From: Pseudoxanthomonas gei
Lineage (GTDB): Bacteria; Pseudomonadota; Gammaproteobacteria; Xanthomonadales; Xanthomonadaceae
DNA: 64,000 nucleotides
Reading direction: 5' to 3'
Assembly (NCBI RefSeq): GCF_010119615.1
Contig: NZ_QOVG01000005.1
Coordinates: 186,001-250,000 of the forward strand
The first letter of the stretch is position 1; every line of letters begins with the position of its first letter. Below, in pieces: positions 53,099-59,748 of this stretch. Both the position numbers and the translations under genes were made by a program. The notes below the pieces were generated by a model, which did not search any database, was not told the DNA's origin, and saw only the letters and a program-made list of their open reading frames with translations.

Positions 53099-55633
53099 CT
53101 ACGCGCCTGGCGCAAAAGCCGGGTCATCGCGCAACGCGCGCAGTGGCGGGATGACCAGCGTGGTGTATTCCTCGTAATGCGCCGCGGGCAGGTCGCACAG
53201 GGGAAGGCGCTGGCTGCGCGGGGTCTCGATCGGCAGTCGCGCTGCTTCGTAGAGGATCACCTCGTGTTCGGGCGGGTACCAGCGCAGCAGCTTGTCGACC
53301 AGCGCCTGCACGCCTTCGCGTTCCGCGTGCAGGCGGGTGCAGGACAGGTCGCCCGACAGCGCCACCTGCCACAGCAACACCAGGCCGGCGGTGTCGGGCT
53401 GGCGGTCGTAGACCAGGAAATGGGTCGCCTCCATCGACTGCACGCCGCGATGGCCCGGGTCTATGCCGAGGTCGGCGTACAGGCAGGCCTCGGCCGAAAT
53501 CCCCGGCTCCATGCGCGCCGGGAAGCCTTCGGCTCGGGCTTTGCGCACCACTTCGTGCGGCACGTCGGCGAACACGCCGGGGTGGCCGTAGAACACCGCG
53601 CAGACCTGCTTGCCGGCGCGGACCTCGGCCATGATCGCCGCGTCGATTTCGCGATAGGTCTCGCGCCGATCCTTGCCGGCGGCGTAGTGGGCGCCAAGAT
53701 TGACCACGTCGGGACGCAGGCCATGGATCATCGCCAGCGCGAACGGGTCGGTCAGGCAGAACACGACCTGGGCCTCGCGGATTTCCGACAGGCAGCGTTC
53801 GCTGGCGTGGCGACCGAACTGGATGCCGCTGCCCACCACCACCAGGCCCGCCGCCGGCGCCGATGCGAAGGCGGCATCGGCCGCGCGGACCACGCGGTTC
53901 CGACCTTCGTCCTTGGCCTGGTACAAGGCCTGGTCCGCCTCGTGGATCAATTGCTCCAGGGTGACGGCCTGCCCCTCGGCCTGGCAGACCCCGGAGCTGA
54001 TGTTGAAGCGGAACGTGTGCCCGAACACGGTGATCGGTTGCATCCGGTCGCGCAGGCGTTGCAGCAGCGCCTGGGCTTGCGCCGCGTCGGCCTCGAGCAG
54101 GATCGTGAACTCGTCGCCGCCGCTGCGCCCGGCGATACCGTCCGCGCCGACCGTTTCACTGATCCACGCGCCCAGGGCGCGCAGCGCCTCATCGCCGGCG
54201 GCGTGGCCGTGGCGGTCGTTGACCTGCTTGAACAGGTCGATGTCGGTGACGATCGCGGTGAACGGCTGCCCGCTGGCACGGGTGCGTGCGAACGCCTCCG
54301 CGCCGAGCTTGCGCACCTGCTGGTAGTTGAGCAGGCGGGTCAGGCTGTCGTGCTCGGACAGCCAGCGGTAGCGGCGGCGCTGGAGGAATGACCGGCGCAG
54401 CAGGATGGACAGCAGGATGGCGGTGACCAGGAACCCGGCCATGCCCATGGCCAGCATCAGTTGCCGGCGCTTGTTCGCGGTGACCTGCACCGCGGCCAGC
54501 GCCTTCTCGGTTTCGAGCAGGGCGATCTGCTGTTCCTTCAGCCGGGTATCGAACTGGACCTGCAGGAAGGCCAGCCGTCGCTCGCGGGCGACGACCTCGA
54601 CCGCTTCCGATACCGCCATCGCCTGCCGGGTGTGGGCCAGCGCGGCGGCGATGTCATTGCGCTTCTCGGCCAGCCTGGCGAGCAGGCGTTCGGTCTCGGC
54701 GATGGCCAGGTCCGATTCCTGTTCCCGGTAATAGCGGAGGGTGTCGACCAGCATCGCCTGGGCCTGGTCGAGCTGCCGGTTGGTAGCGATGAGGCTTTCG
54801 GCGATGACCAGCCGGGCACTGTAGGCGCCGACTTCAAAGCCCACGGCCTGGAACTCGGCCAGTGCCTCGCTCGCCCACTTCAATGCCTCTTCATGACGTC
54901 CTTGCGCGGCGGCCATCTTGCCGACGCCGTACTTGCCGTTGGCGATGAAGACCGGATCGCCGGCGCGGACACAGGCATCGATCTGGCGATGGCGCCATTT
55001 CTCCGCCTCGCTGAAATGGCCTGCGTGGTCCTCCGCCAGTCCCACGTCGCTCAGGGCCATGCACAGCGCGCGCGGGTCGTCCTGCTTTTCGACGATCTGC
55101 AGGGCCTGCAGCGCCAGTTCCCTGGCCCGCCCGGTCTCGCCGACCAGCGTATGCAGGTAGCTGGCGGCACCCAGCAGCCTGGCCGCTTCCGTGGGGGTCT
55201 CGTGCAGGTATTTCAGGCCTTCGTTGAGCCAGGCGAACGCCCGCGGCCAGTCCTCGAGGTTGGCCGCAACGCTGGTGGCCGTGGTGTAGATACGCACGCG
55301 CAACGGCACCGGCAGGTCCTGCTTCAACAGTTCGGCCAGACCCTTCAGCGCGGCAGGCTGGTCACCTGCAAGCGCGCGGTTGCGCAAGCGCACGTAATCG
55401 ATGCGGTGCCGCTGCAGTGGCGTGAGCGCATCCAGCCGCGACGCCAGCGCACCGATCTTCCTGTCCGAGTCCCGCCAGTGCGCGGTGACCGCAAGCTGCT
55501 CGATATCCTTGACCTGCGCCTCCAGCGCCATCGCCTCCGACGGCGACACGCCGGCGGAGGGCGACTGGGCCAGGGCGGCCGGCGCGCAGGCGAATGCCAG
55601 CCACAGCAATGCGATCGCGGCGGGCCGGAACAT
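53099..55633 (-). CDS. TPR - transmembrane - GGDEF - borosin-type N-methyltransferase fusion
   Basis: This 844-residue protein has a signal peptide (1-22), a TPR-like helical region (about 35-345), a coiled coil, and one membrane helix (about 391-412). A GGDEF domain (428-584, SGGDEF at 504-509, no RxxD site) follows. Residues 597-832 match the SonM/OphMA alpha-N-methyltransferase of the tetrapyrrole methylase superfamily: LVVVGSGI, RRETYREI (Arg657, Tyr660), VCAVFYGHPGVF (Tyr682), MEPGISAEACLYADLGIDPG, LLWQVALSG, EVILYEAARLPI. In borosins this enzyme uses SAM to methylate backbone amides of a peptide. Predicted topology is periplasmic TPR and cytoplasmic GGDEF-methyltransferase. A precursor-like gene lies 29 bp upstream. 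Confidence 0.9.
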   Translation of the reverse strand: MFRPAAIALLWLAFACAPAALAQSPSAGVSPSEAMALEAQVKDIEQLAVTAHWRDSDRKIGALASRLDALTPLQRHRIDYVRLRNRALAGDQPAALKGLAELLKQDLPVPLRVRIYTTATSVAANLEDWPRAFAWLNEGLKYLHETPTEAARLLGAASYLHTLVGETGRARELALQALQIVEKQDDPRALCMALSDVGLAEDHAGHFSEAEKWRHRQIDACVRAGDPVFIANGKYGVGKMAAAQGRHEEALKWASEALAEFQAVGFEVGAYSARLVIAESLIATNRQLDQAQAMLVDTLRYYREQESDLAIAETERLLARLAEKRNDIAAALAHTRQAMAVSEAVEVVARERRLAFLQVQFDTRLKEQQIALLETEKALAAVQVTANKRRQLMLAMGMAGFLVTAILLSILLRRSFLQRRRYRWLSEHDSLTRLLNYQQVRKLGAEAFARTRASGQPFTAIVTDIDLFKQVNDRHGHAAGDEALRALGAWISETVGADGIAGRSGGDEFTILLEADAAQAQALLQRLRDRMQPITVFGHTFRFNISSGVCQAEGQAVTLEQLIHEADQALYQAKDEGRNRVVRAADAAFASAPAAGLVVVGSGIQFGRHASERCLSEIREAQVVFCLTDPFALAMIHGLRPDVVNLGAHYAAGKDRRETYREIDAAIMAEVRAGKQVCAVFYGHPGVFADVPHEVVRKARAEGFPARMEPGISAEACLYADLGIDPGHRGVQSMEATHFLVYDRQPDTAGLVLLWQVALSGDLSCTRLHAEREGVQALVDKLLRWYPPEHEVILYEAARLPIETPRSQRLPLCDLPAAHYEEYTTLVIPPLRALRDDPAFAPGA

Positions 55634-55662
55634 TGGCAGGCGCCTGCCGAGGGGCCCGACGG

Positions 55663-55887
55663 CTACGCGTTGTAGGTCTTGATGGTGTGGTTGGTGGCGT
55701 ACTGCCCCTCCTCCAACCCGGTAAGTTTCCCGACCGCCGCGTAGTCACTTGCCAGCATCGCCTTGCGCTCATCGTCGGAAACCCCGGCGCGATCCAGCAC
55801 CGCCTCGGGATCCTTCAGGTATTCCGCCTCCAGCGCAGCGTCGCTTCCAAGCTTATTCATCAGGTCAAGCAGTTTCGACTTCGACAT
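55663..55887 (-). CDS. Borosin-like RiPP precursor peptide (SonA-type)
   Basis: This 74-residue protein lies upstream of, and co-directional with, the methyltransferase fusion. Residues 4-56 fit the helical borosin-binding domain of split borosins: LLDLMNKLGSDAALEAEYLKD, PEAVLDRAGVSDDERKAML, SDYAAVGKLTG. The C-terminal tail EGQYATNHTIKTYNA (60-74) is the likely core or its remnant, with hydrophobic/Thr residues as possible methylation sites. GGGAG six bases upstream supports the ATG at 55887; longer frames have no support. LigA-like helical proteins share this fold, so precursor identity rests on context. No protease or dedicated exporter gene is adjacent. Confidence 0.82.
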   Translation of the reverse strand: MSKSKLLDLMNKLGSDAALEAEYLKDPEAVLDRAGVSDDERKAMLASDYAAVGKLTGLEEGQYATNHTIKTYNA

Positions 55888-56217
55888 GTCATCTCCCTTG
55901 GGAATCAATCCGGCATCGGTCAGCGCACGCCCGCGACCCGCAGGCGATGCAGTCTCCACATGGCAATCGCCCCGGCGTGTGTGCAAGTACTCCGCCGCCC
56001 TTCGAGGCAAGCGGACATTAGCATGGAACGGCAGGCTCCCCGGCGCGCCGGCAGGGGCCCCTCGGCCCGCAGGATCGGGGCCTGCAAAACCCGGTGGTGA
56101 TGCCCTTGCTTGCCGCAGTTGCAACCGCCCAGCGCCGGATTCAACCGTGCGCGCGGAAAGGGCCGGGCCTCTACAGGCATACCTGTATAAAGAGTGCGGG
56201 CAACACCTTGGTGGCAC
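55888..56217. other. Divergent promoter region between borosin and REC-GGDEF operons
   Basis: The 330-bp gap has no supported gene and must hold promoters for both directions. On the plus strand TGTATAAA at 56184-56191 is a plausible extended -10, placing transcription start near 56197. I saw no obvious operator. Both operons being controlled from one short region makes co-regulation likely. Confidence 0.5.
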
Positions 56218-57219
56218 TTGGAAAAGAAGAGCATCATCCTGTGCGTGGACGACGATTCGACGGTGCTGAACGCGCTGCGGACCATGCTATCCAGCCATTT
56301 CGGACCCGAAGTCCAGGTCGAATTCGCAGAAAGCGGCGACGAGGCGCTGGAGATCGCAGCCGAGCTGCATGCCCAAGGGGGCGAGCTGGGCCTGGTGATC
56401 TCGGACTTCATGATGCCGGGCCTGCGCGGCGACGAGCTGCTGGTCAAACTGCATGAGGCTTCCGCCAACACCGTCAAGATCCTGCTCACGGGACAAAGCG
56501 ACATGTCCGGCGTAAAGCGCGCCATCAACGAGGCCAACCTTTACCGCTTCCTGGAAAAACCATTCCTCAACGACGACATCGTGCTGACGGTACGGGCGGC
56601 CCTGCGCGCCTACTGGCAGGAACGTGACCTGATCCGCCACAACGAGGAGCTGCGGCGCATGAATGCCGAGCTCGAGGACATCGTGGCTGCCCGCACGGAA
56701 GAACTGGTGGAAAAAAACCGCCTGCTGGAAGTGCTTTCTGTGACCGACAAGCTGACCGGCCTGTACAACCGACGCAAGCTCGACGAACTGCTCGAAGAGG
56801 AAATCGTCCGCGCCCAACGCTATCAGGCCGAGCTCTCGGTCATCATGCTGGACATCGATCGCTTCAAGCGGGTGAATGACACCTACGGCCATGGTGCGGG
56901 TGACGAGGTGTTGATCGAAGTCGCGGGATTACTGCGCCGGCATACCCGTGACGCCGATGTACTGGGCCGGCTGGGGGGTGAGGAGTTCCTGCTGGTGTGT
57001 CCGCACAGCAGCGCCGCCGCCGCCCTGGGCATCGCGGTGAAACTGCGCGATGCGATGGCCGCGCATCCTTTCCCCATTGTCGGCCAGGTGACATCGAGTT
57101 TTGGAATTGCGTCCTGCCGACCCGACGACACCGCCGCGGCCCTGCTGGCCCGTGCCGATGCCGCGCTTTATCGGGCCAAGGGCGCGGGCCGCAATCGGGT
57201 GGAGCTCGAGAATGCCTGA
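56218..57219 (+). CDS. Response regulator diguanylate cyclase (REC-GGDEF)
   Basis: This 333-residue soluble protein has a receiver domain (about 5-125) with the acidic cluster CVDDD, phosphoacceptor Asp63 in ISDFMMPG, and Lys114 in FLEKPF. A coiled coil (about 135-172) leads to a GGDEF domain with GGEEF at 253-257. Arg244-x-x-Asp247 forms an intact product-inhibition site. Phosphorylation should promote dimerisation and c-di-GMP synthesis. I favour the TTG at 56218 (starts EKKSIILCVDD), matching the paralogous receiver two genes on; a GTG at 56194 would precede the likely transcription start. The next gene overlaps by 8 bp and probably encodes its kinase. Confidence 0.9.
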   Translation: MEKKSIILCVDDDSTVLNALRTMLSSHFGPEVQVEFAESGDEALEIAAELHAQGGELGLVISDFMMPGLRGDELLVKLHEASANTVKILLTGQSDMSGVKRAINEANLYRFLEKPFLNDDIVLTVRAALRAYWQERDLIRHNEELRRMNAELEDIVAARTEELVEKNRLLEVLSVTDKLTGLYNRRKLDELLEEEIVRAQRYQAELSVIMLDIDRFKRVNDTYGHGAGDEVLIEVAGLLRRHTRDADVLGRLGGEEFLLVCPHSSAAAALGIAVKLRDAMAAHPFPIVGQVTSSFGIASCRPDDTAAALLARADAALYRAKGAGRNRVELENA

Positions 57220-59347
57220 TTCAACCGGGCAACTGGCCAGCCGCATCATTGAACTGGAGACAGAGCTGGCCGAACGCCGCCGCGCCGAGGAACTGCAGCG
57301 TGCGCTCTACGAGATTGCGTCGCTGTCGGTGGCCGACAGTCCGGAGCATGAGCACTACGTGGAACTGCATGACATCGTGGGCCGGCTGATGTATGCGAAA
57401 AATTTCATCATCGCCACCTATGATGCGGACGACGGGATGATCCGCCAGCAATACCTGGTAGACGAAGACCCAGGCGAGGTCATGGAATCCTTCCCGTTTG
57501 GCGAAGGCATTTCCTCGCTGGTCATCCGTAGCCGCCTGCCGTGGCTGCTGGACCATGCCCTGTTCCAGTCACTGGTAGAGGCCGGCGAGATTCGTGCGCC
57601 GCGCGGCCTGGTTGATTTCAACAGCTGGATGGGCGCGCCGCTGATTGCACAGGACACGGTATACGGCGTGATAATCGTGCAGAGCTACAGCACGGACGTC
57701 ACCTACACGCAGGCCGACCTCGACCTTTTGAACTACGTGGCCAGCCACGTGGCGGCGATCGTCGCGCGCTGGCAGTCGAACATCGCGTTGAAGCAGGCCA
57801 ATGACGAACTCGCCGCATCGGCTGAAACATTGCGCCTGCTGGGCGACGTGGGCAAGGATCTGACCGCCAGCCTGGACACGCTGGCGATCTGCAAGACCAT
57901 GGAGCGCCACATTGGCGCGCTGTTGCCTATGGATGCCTTCGGCGTGGCCTTGCTGTCACCGGCCGGGGACGCCCTGGATTACGCCTATTACATCGAGGAT
58001 GGCGTAGTCGATGCCTCCAACTCCTACCCGTTGGACCATCCCACCTCGCTGGCGGTATTGACCTTCCGCGAGGACCGTGAGTTGACCCTGTTCAACGACC
58101 CGCAGTTGGCCAATGCCCCAAGCGCGTCGACAATCGAAGAGTCTGCGCCAATTCGTTCGGCCGTGTTCCGGCCCCTCATCGCAAACGGCCGGCGCATCGG
58201 CGTGGTGACCGTGCAAAGCCACCAGGCCGATGCCTACGGCGAGCGCCACATCGAAGTGTTCCGGTCGGCAACGGCGTACGCAGCCATCGCCCTGGCCAAT
58301 GCCGATGCCTACGCCACTGCCGAGGCAGCGCGCAAGCAGGCAGCGCAGGCACTGCATGATCTGCACCAGGCCGAGGCCCAGCTGGTGCACTCGGAAAAGA
58401 TGGCGGCCCTGGGGCAGCTGATAGCCGGGGTCGCACACGAGATCAACACGCCGATCGGCGCGATCAAGTCCAGCGGGCGGAATATCACCGAAGCACTCGG
58501 CAGTGCCTTGCTGGATCTGCCCGCCCTGCTCGACGAACTGGATGCAGCCCATCGCGTCTATTTCAGCGAGCTGCTCACGCGTGCCAGTCGACCCAAGGCC
58601 GTGATGAGCACGCGCGAGGAGCGCGGCATCGTACGCGAGGTGACCGCCCAGCTCGAGGCGCTTGGCGTGGCCCAACCCCGCCACAACGCTGGCTTGCTGG
58701 TGCAACTGCAGTCGCACACCGACCTGGAGCAGGTGCTGCCGCTGCTGCGCCACCCGGCAGGCGACCGCATTCTGAACACCGCGTACGGCATTGCCACCAT
58801 CACCACCAATGCCGACAACATCAACACCGCGGTCGATCGCGTGGCCAAGATCATCTTCGCGCTGAAGTCCTTCTCGCGCTTCGGTGGCGTGCAGGTCTGG
58901 ACCGGGTCGGACCTGCGCGAAGGGATCGAGACGGTGCTTACGATCTACCAGAACCAGATCAAGCACGGCATCGAGCTGGTCCGCCAATTCGAAGAGGTAC
59001 CGCCGGTGCGCTGCCTGCCCGACGAGATCAGCCAGGTGTGGACCAACCTGATCCACAATGCATTGCAGGCCATGGATCAAAAGGGCGTCCTGACCCTGGG
59101 CTTGCGCCGCGACGGCGACAACGCGCTGGTGTCGATTACAGACACCGGCTGCGGCATGACGCCGGAGGTAAGGGAGCGGATTTTCGACGCCTTCTTCACC
59201 ACCAAGCCGGCGGGCGAAGGCACTGGCCTGGGCCTGGACATCGTACGCAAGATCATCGAGAAACATGGTGGCCAGATTTACGTGACCAGCGAGGTCGGCC
59301 GCGGCAGTACCTTCACGGTCAGTTTGCCAATTGCAGGAGTCGGATGA
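57212..59347 (+). CDS. Soluble GAF-GAF sensor histidine kinase
   Basis: This 711-residue kinase has a short N-terminal coiled coil and two GAF domains (about 35-185 and 205-365). A coiled coil and HisKA follow with phospho-His409 in [11 protein letters not shown]. An insert of about 130 residues precedes the HATPase domain (N-box [25 protein letters not shown]). There are no membrane segments, so it senses a cytoplasmic small molecule. The gene overlaps both neighbours (8 bp before, ATGA after), so it is translationally coupled to two receiver proteins, its probable phosphotransfer targets. The insert between HisKA and HATPase is unusual. Confidence 0.92.
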
Positions 59348-59748
59348 TGGAAAAGGGCGTGTTGCTTTGCGTTGACGACGAGATCATCGTGCTGACCGCG
59401 TTGAAGGACCAGCTTCGCCGGGCATTCGGCAGCGAGTTCCATATCGACGTTGCCGAAAGCGCCGAGGAGGCACTGGAGTTGCTCGAAGAGCTGGCGCTCG
59501 ATGGCCACACGCTGCTGGTGATCGTTTCGGATTGGCTCATGCCGGGCATGAAGGGCGACGAGTTCCTGATCCAGGCGCACGGGCGCTTTCCGTCGGTAGT
59601 GAAGATCATGCTGTCGGGCCAGGCAGAGTCAGCCGCTGTCGATCGCGCGCGCCGCGAGGCGGGCCTGCATGATTTCCTGTCCAAGCCCTGGAATGCCGAG
59701 GCGCTGGTGGAATCGATCAACCAAGGCCTGCAGGAACGAGCGGCCTAG
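59344..59748 (+). CDS. Stand-alone receiver domain protein
   Basis: This 134-residue single-domain response regulator has the acidic cluster CVDDE, phosphoacceptor Asp in IVSDWLMPG, and Lys in FLSKPW. Its opening (EKGVLLCVDDE) mirrors the receiver of the REC-GGDEF protein. It has no output domain, so it may act as a phosphate sink, a competitor for the kinase, or a protein-interaction switch. The start overlaps the kinase stop codon (ATGA). Confidence 0.93.
   Translation: MMEKGVLLCVDDEIIVLTALKDQLRRAFGSEFHIDVAESAEEALELLEELALDGHTLLVIVSDWLMPGMKGDEFLIQAHGRFPSVVKIMLSGQAESAAVDRARREAGLHDFLSKPWNAEALVESINQGLQERAA

Follow-up and report, generated by a model that had tools for sequence, protein, structure and literature searches.

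The closest described relative of the system reported here is the type IV split borosin SonM/SonA of Shewanella oneidensis, in which the alpha-N-methyltransferase SonM, a free enzyme of 263 residues, and its precursor SonA of ~75 residues are separately encoded, the precursor consisting of a five-helix binding domain and a C-terminal core. According to the excerpted text of PMC8429565, SonM is active as a homodimer with one SonA bound per subunit, mutation of its residues Y58, R67, Y71 and Y93 reduces activity, and SonA is methylated at L63 and I65. In the fused borosins OphMA, dbOphMA and MroMA the core lies on the enzyme's own chain. Borosin types V-X were reportedly defined in Imani 2022 and Cho 2022, and Lee 2024 is said to announce a borosin function in its title. 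In type XI, as given in excerpts of PMC11395268, the methyltransferase is C-terminal and the N-terminal domain has an unknown function. In this study we describe a locus of Pseudoxanthomonas gei (genome of 3.43 Mb), located in a 64,000-nt stretch of contig NZ_QOVG01000005.1 that we call the window, in which a SonA-like precursor gene stands directly before a gene for a membrane protein with a tetratricopeptide-repeat (TPR)-like array and a GGDEF domain. Unlike the discrete type IV enzyme, the predicted methyltransferase forms the C-terminal domain (residues 597-835) of this 844-residue protein, and unlike in OphMA, dbOphMA and MroMA the core is part of a separate protein. We consider it probable that the locus is a two-gene split-borosin module, that its N-methyltransferase forms the C-terminal, cytoplasmic domain of a TPR-GGDEF protein of the inner membrane, and that peptide methylation is thereby coupled to the synthesis of cyclic di-GMP (c-di-GMP).

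The original prediction took this architecture to be undescribed. This is not supported, as Xu et al. 2024 (PMC11395268) already name a 'GGDEF-sequence-containing domain' among borosin architectures in the legend to their Figure 1; the likeness to our locus lies in the GGDEF domain and is drawn from that legend. A GGDEF-bearing borosin architecture is thus already in print and the novelty of the fusion as such is limited. A conserved linkage of borosin and GGDEF genes was not found in print among the best-matching papers listed by our literature searches, of which only PMC11395268, in its excerpted text, joins both terms. The biological role of SonM/SonA-type systems is not stated in the excerpts of PMC8429565 and PMC11395268. 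The locus comprises two open reading frames (ORFs) on the minus strand, the precursor first and the fusion protein second, with the 29-bp gap that had been predicted, and both are presumably carried on one transcript:

55663..55887, minus strand: borosin precursor, SonA-like, 74 residues, with a putative five-helix borosin-binding domain and a short C-terminal core/tail QYATNHTIKTYNA
55666..55710, minus strand: predicted core/tail, residues 60-74 of the 74-residue precursor
55634..55662, minus strand: 29-bp spacer from the precursor stop to the fusion start
53099..55633, minus strand: 844-residue fusion protein, with predicted signal peptide, TPR-like array, membrane helix, GGDEF domain and borosin N-methyltransferase domain
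55568..55633, minus strand: hydrophobic N-terminal stretch, residues 1-22, read as a signal peptide from hydropathy (4-22) and sequence
54662..55543, minus strand: TPR-like helical array, residues 31-324, predicted to be periplasmic (Pfam TPR_12 below cut-off, and structure model)
54353..54652, minus strand: single long helix, residues 328-427, with the membrane segment at residues 394-412 (54398-54454), running into the GGDEF domain
53894..54355, minus strand: GGDEF (diguanylate cyclase) domain, residues 427-580, motif residues 505-509 at 54107-54121, no RxxD inhibitory site (I-site)
53129..53845, minus strand: SonM-type alpha-N-methyltransferase domain, residues 597-835

The assignment of the C-terminal domain rests on several comparisons. 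Pfam TP_methylase matched residues 597-798 of the fusion protein (E 1.1e-18), and against the PDB the C-terminal part found SonM as its best match (E 6.7e-72; 47-49% identity in Foldseek alignments), with the homologous domains of OphMA and dbOphMA at ~1e-40 to 2e-38 and that of MroMA at 2.4e-33. The first non-borosin methylase appeared only at E 1.1e-4. An ordinary tetrapyrrole methylase was rejected on these values, and the borosin-type enzyme originally predicted for residues 597-832 was borne out. The residues matching SonM Y58, R67, Y71 and Y93 are conserved in 16 of 16 aligned fusions and in 41 of 41 stand-alone enzymes (two of the 41 from one genome). Judged from its sequence, the C-terminal domain is a borosin enzyme of the SonM type with its predicted active-site residues kept. 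It is also the most conserved domain of the fusion: mean identity of 15 relatives to the window protein was 79% in the methyltransferase, 63% in the GGDEF domain and 52% in the TPR part. It might be thought that the domain is a non-catalytic binding module that reports the status of the precursor or of S-adenosylmethionine to the cyclase, and its fusion to a signalling enzyme would suit such a role. With the four SonM residues kept in every aligned fusion, and in the domain that varies least, we regard this as very unlikely.

The 74-residue protein proved to be what had been predicted, a SonA-like precursor. When it was compared with the PDB (phmmer, E up to 10), 7 of 7 matches came from SonM-SonA entries and were SonA (best E 2.5e-5). 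An AlphaFold2 (AF2) model of the protein has five helices, at residues 5-15, 17-25, 27-34, 38-45 and 49-56, with a mean predicted local distance difference test score (pLDDT) of 81. In a Foldseek search with this model the first 24 matches were again from SonM-SonA entries and the next was LigAB; the E-values for this very short protein were weak (best 0.016, none <=0.001) at probabilities of 0.98-1.00. The related clasp or binding domain of OphMA, dbOphMA and MroMA gave weak matches as well. A LigA dioxygenase subunit was considered as an identity for the small protein and rejected, the Pfam LigA match (2.9e-4) being below cut-off and SonA matching better. By homology the 74-residue protein is a SonA-type precursor. 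Its alignment to SonA is ungapped up to residue 60, and if extended in this way SonA L63 and I65 would correspond to Y63 and T65, the putative methylation sites.

In the TPR-GGDEF part, hydropathy gives two membrane segments, the N-terminal one at residues 4-22 and one further helix at residues 394-412. Pfam TPR_12 matched at about residues 153-212 with E 6.2e-6 and 26.7 bits, below the Pfam cut-off of 30.1, so that the TPR-like array rests on the AF2 model of the full-length protein, in which residues 31-324 form a regular helical array with blocks at pLDDT 82-96. In the same model a continuous helix, residues 328-427, passes through the membrane segment into the GGDEF domain (Pfam GGDEF, residues 427-580, E 3.4e-34). 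The catalytic motif is intact and the four residues at the would-be RxxD position are GADG, so that the earlier reading of an intact motif without inhibitory site can be kept, as can that of a fusion to a TPR-membrane-GGDEF protein. D464, D466, K469, N472, D473, D481, G505, G506, E508, F509, K574 and R578 are invariant in the 16 aligned fusions; we take their roles in metal or nucleotide binding to be those known from PleD and WspR. The GG(D/E)EF motif is intact in 44 of 45 fused loci from named genomes, the 45th being cut off before it. On these grounds the TPR-GGDEF part is very probably a diguanylate cyclase.

The RxxD site is found in many, not all, diguanylate cyclases. It is absent from all 44 named fused proteins and from all 16 fusions of the aligned set. 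It is present in 34 of the 37 GGDEF proteins that neighbour stand-alone enzymes of the family and, among the named loci, in 15 of 17 GGDEF proteins encoded downstream of the enzyme. Among those encoded upstream of a separate enzyme it was seen in 8 of 21, namely in three of four Undibacterium loci and a few others, and is missing in Wenzhouxiangella and Thiolapillus. It thus looks as if the loss of the I-site preceded the fusion. These counts bear on the reading proposed originally, according to which the TPR and GGDEF parts are sensor and switch and the binding of c-di-GMP or GTP times the methylation of the precursor, perhaps with a periplasmic partner of the TPRs as trigger. The domain architecture, the continuity of the helix from the membrane into the GGDEF domain and the place of the methyltransferase as the most conserved domain would all fit such a flow of information. 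However, the I-site is the usual c-di-GMP binding site, and with 44 of 44 fused proteins lacking it c-di-GMP is no obvious ligand; the catalytic residues that are kept point to making c-di-GMP rather than sensing it. We therefore consider control from signal to methylation somewhat unlikely.

In a scan of named genomes, of which the best 80 of 292 confirmed loci were retained, we found 45 loci with the fusion. The precursor was directly upstream in 42 of the 42 whose contig reached that far, in line with the expected pairing of fusion and small precursor. The pairing of both genes in other species argues that the find is not due to chance. In 15 relatives the spacer between precursor and fusion measures 8-83 nt with start codons of our choosing. 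The fused loci belong to Luteimonas, Pseudoxanthomonas, Thermomonas, Dokdonella, Rubrivivax and various metagenome-assembled genomes (MAGs). The closest named relative of the window is Pseudoxanthomonas yeongjuensis, with 92% identity in the methyltransferase. Among 38 genomes of the genus, that of the window included, three carry the fusion and 22 others have a 44-52% identical enzyme in a short open frame. An accidental or assembly fusion without function might be suspected, the genes being separate in related genomes. With 45 named fused loci from isolates (Luteimonas, Pseudoxanthomonas, Rubrivivax) and MAGs, forming one clade and with intact motifs, we give this hardly any credence.

The remaining loci among the 80 show where the two genes stand when they are not fused. 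Counting GGDEF proteins of at least 500 residues on the same strand within 1.2 kb of the enzyme, a separate GGDEF gene lies upstream in 16 loci, on both sides in 2, downstream in 14 and nowhere in 3, and two of these last three (L164, L185) are cut by contig ends. In total 77 of the 80 loci have a GGDEF protein fused or within 1.2 kb, a figure that counts one fused locus cut to its C-terminal part. In the 18 loci with an upstream GGDEF gene, the distance from its stop to a possible enzyme start is -4 to +26 nt in 12 and 153-674 nt in five (L181, L186, L188, L189, L200); L173 was not resolved.

Trees of the methyltransferase domain agree with a single origin of the fusion. In a quick tree of 166 domains (L119, L164 and L185, whose contigs end near the enzyme, unlabelled; L142 labelled as fused by hand; L133 present as two rows) the 47 fused rows formed one clade with a support of 96 in the Shimodaira-Hasegawa-like approximate likelihood ratio test (SH-aLRT). 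The next well-supported set (99) added 14 rows of the upstream type, one downstream, one without GGDEF gene and one unlabelled. In a more careful tree of 92 rows, calculated without L142, L151 and L165 and with one unlinked row and 22 rows of the downstream type, taken in order from L178, the 44 fused rows again formed one clade (bootstrap/SH-aLRT 99/98) that was present in 100% of 200 bootstrap trees. Among the nearest relatives of this clade are loci in which the genes are separate but colinear, in the order precursor, TPR-GGDEF, methyltransferase. The simplest account is one fusion event by a single loss of the stop between neighbouring genes. The trees were rooted on SonM for drawing only, and we read the direction as fusion and not fission because the separate genes are so widely spread.

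The linkage is not confined to close relatives. In the family we examined 247 genomes, assuming matches of E ~1e-6 or weaker to be unrelated methylases and leaving them uncounted. As a subset of the strong matches we took 40 stand-alone loci, 16 fused loci apart from that of the window, and a single locus with a long frame (L081, from the same genome as L104 and with identical arrangement). A sample of 20 loci was drawn from the 95 genomes of the order with a match, and another 20 loci represent class and phylum, with G001 and G990 left out. Linkage in the stand-alone samples was defined as a same-strand GGDEF ORF of at least 400 residues within 1.3 kb of the enzyme. It was observed in 35 of 40 family loci, 19 of 20 order loci and 11 of 20 class and phylum loci; of these, 34, 14 and 10, respectively, had a recognisable SonA-like precursor. 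The window's genome has 25 other GGDEF matches, and under even spacing adjacency by chance would be expected in about 1 locus in 100, although the loci are not fully independent because of shared descent. In L213, L218 and L220, which belong to one genus, presumably Shewanella, the enzymes share 78, 69 and 68% identity with SonM; these loci have SonA-like precursors (46-63% over 56 residues) and, 208-280 nt downstream, a gene for a GGDEF membrane protein.

A Wenzhouxiangella TPR-GGDEF protein, used as a query, showed that the partner is indeed the same protein. In 8 of 8 genomes with a borosin enzyme the best full-length match lay within the borosin cluster; for the window's genome it was the fusion itself, with 228 bits vs 108 bits for the next match, which covered the GGDEF part only. 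G001 and G003 have two GGDEF genes in tandem, and the second, at 2.5-2.9 kb from the enzyme, outscored the nearer one. Two members of the genus that lack the enzyme gave GGDEF-domain matches only. In eight further genomes of two other families the best match was the borosin-linked protein in six, among them G746, where it is encoded on the opposite strand next to the enzyme, and was not in G616 and G990. The TPR part of the partner was checked by Pfam in four cases and scored above cut-off in three; the other partners were recognised by GGDEF domain, length, membrane helix or full-length similarity. Since unfused relatives keep the genes together, the tie between this branch of borosin enzymes and a GGDEF protein is stronger than the original prediction could know.

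Another possibility is ordinary production of a ribosomally synthesised and post-translationally modified peptide (RiPP), the peptide being an end product such as an antibiotic or signal and the TPR-GGDEF part only tethering the enzyme to the membrane or tuning production. According to excerpts of PMC8429565 and PMC11395268, borosins with a known product belong to natural-product pathways. We compared the flanks of 46 fused loci including the window, 29 of which have 6 kb on both sides. Besides the precursor, only one family reaches 10 loci within 6 kb, an LD-carboxypeptidase (Peptidase_S66), whose gene precedes that of the precursor, in the same orientation, in 10 of the 46, nine from Luteimonas and one from P. 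kalamensis (in L125, 3132-4217, plus strand, Pfam E 2.2e-41). Such a gene may be a processing gene, a resistance gene or plain synteny, and would lend production some support; however, it was not found in the window's cluster, and no other flanking family is as frequent. Nor does the core look diversified. Within the fused clade, 25 of 43 precursors, that of the window among them, have the tail motif (F/Y)ATNHx(I/V), and all 43 have a looser form of it, the tail after the binding domain being short throughout this clade. Of the nearest unfused precursors some end in similar TN-STIKAYD-like tails and others do not, and in stand-alone family loci with the GGDEF gene downstream the precursors recognised tend to a hydrophobic core and an acidic tail. 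A core that is similar across genera, together with the lack of a widely common export or maturation gene, would be easier to reconcile with a role inside the cell than with a secreted product that diversifies. Plain RiPP production hence appears unlikely to us.

How could methylation and c-di-GMP synthesis be coupled in the module we favour? The diguanylate cyclase SiaD is controlled by the small protein activator SiaC and offers a model for such control. SiaD (PDB 7e6g), a GGDEF domain with preceding helix, was at rank 25 in Foldseek; unlike our protein it has no methyltransferase, and its partner is a different one. In GGDEF enzymes the active site is formed between two subunits. Because borosin methyltransferases and GGDEF enzymes both work as dimers, we propose that they may share one dimer. 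The helical domain of the precursor would dock on the methyltransferase homodimer, and one or two backbone positions of its short tail, near Y63-T65, would receive an N-methyl group. A single chain carrying both domains would place both reactions in one dimer, which would read the state of the methyltransferase-precursor complex as well as the signal seen by the periplasmic TPRs and in this way couple peptide methylation to c-di-GMP synthesis. The precursor-methyltransferase complex would tune the cyclase, and the TPRs would provide a further input. Control may run from this complex to the cyclase equally as in the reverse direction; we hold the former to be slightly more likely, and simple co-localisation of both reactions is possible as well. 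It might even be, as we tentatively suggest, that the split borosins of this branch are signalling circuits and not natural-product pathways, in which docking or N-methylation of the precursor switches a TPR-coupled diguanylate cyclase and sets c-di-GMP levels; the window would then hold the version of this circuit with both enzymes on a single polypeptide.

Several points weigh against the coupled module. Methylation, cyclase activity and the direction of control are all things that we infer from sequence. Of the 20 loci that represent class and phylum, 9 have no adjacent GGDEF gene on the same strand, so the GGDEF link is a trait of a single branch and not of borosin enzymes at large; most of these nine are more diverged enzymes, and L219, which is not among the more diverged, has a GGDEF gene on the opposite strand. 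Unfused partners vary in the I-site, so that its loss is not tied to fusion alone. The full-length AF2 model is poor in the methyltransferase part (residues 713-769 with pLDDT <50), and domain packing cannot be read from it. Finally, the peptidase in 10 fused loci could point to a processed product there.

The linkage across fused, colinear and rearranged layouts, together with the loci whose enzymes are 68-78% identical to SonM, leads to the hypothesis that these peptides act with a membrane diguanylate cyclase. Gene linkage thus makes the role of split borosins testable, and the fusion is a convenient test object, with both activities on one chain and the substrate encoded next door. Our data suggest that borosins, modified peptides about which little is understood, have a part in the c-di-GMP signalling of bacteria. 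If so, the N-methylation of peptide backbones would serve in signalling and would be more than a route to drug-like peptides.

Some further observations were made on the distribution of the genes. In Rubrivivax, a betaproteobacterium (L134, L142, L143, L182), the fusions are 81-85% identical to the window in the methyltransferase, which suggests transfer between classes. The single fused locus assigned to Sphingomonadales comes from a MAG, possibly through an error of binning, and in a MAG of Dokdonella sp. (L133) the precursor-fusion pair is present in two copies near each other. A plasmid collection searched at the protein level gave no precursor; methyltransferase matches came from 20 of its records, none of them reaching 60% identity.

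Divergent from the two genes, on the plus strand of the window at 56194-59748, lie genes for a response regulator-GGDEF protein and a GAF-histidine kinase, with a receiver-like ORF (59038-59748, called by eye) beyond the kinase gene. These neighbours were not seen beside the fusion in the flanking clusters listed for its relatives. As members of the unit they were rejected, since among the clusters listed only that of the precursor includes the window.

Borosin methyltransferase domains were also met in other long frames. L245 (3829-5463, minus strand, genome G1083 of the same order) encodes a 545-residue frame with two tandem borosin methyltransferase domains and a SonA-like precursor frame 3 nt upstream, and is the sole locus of the order sample without an adjacent GGDEF gene. 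G1146 likewise has two methyltransferase matches in a 545-residue frame. In L224 (5400-8930, minus strand, genome G656 of the same phylum) the domain lies inside a 1177-residue frame that gave no GGDEF match and may represent a fusion of another kind.

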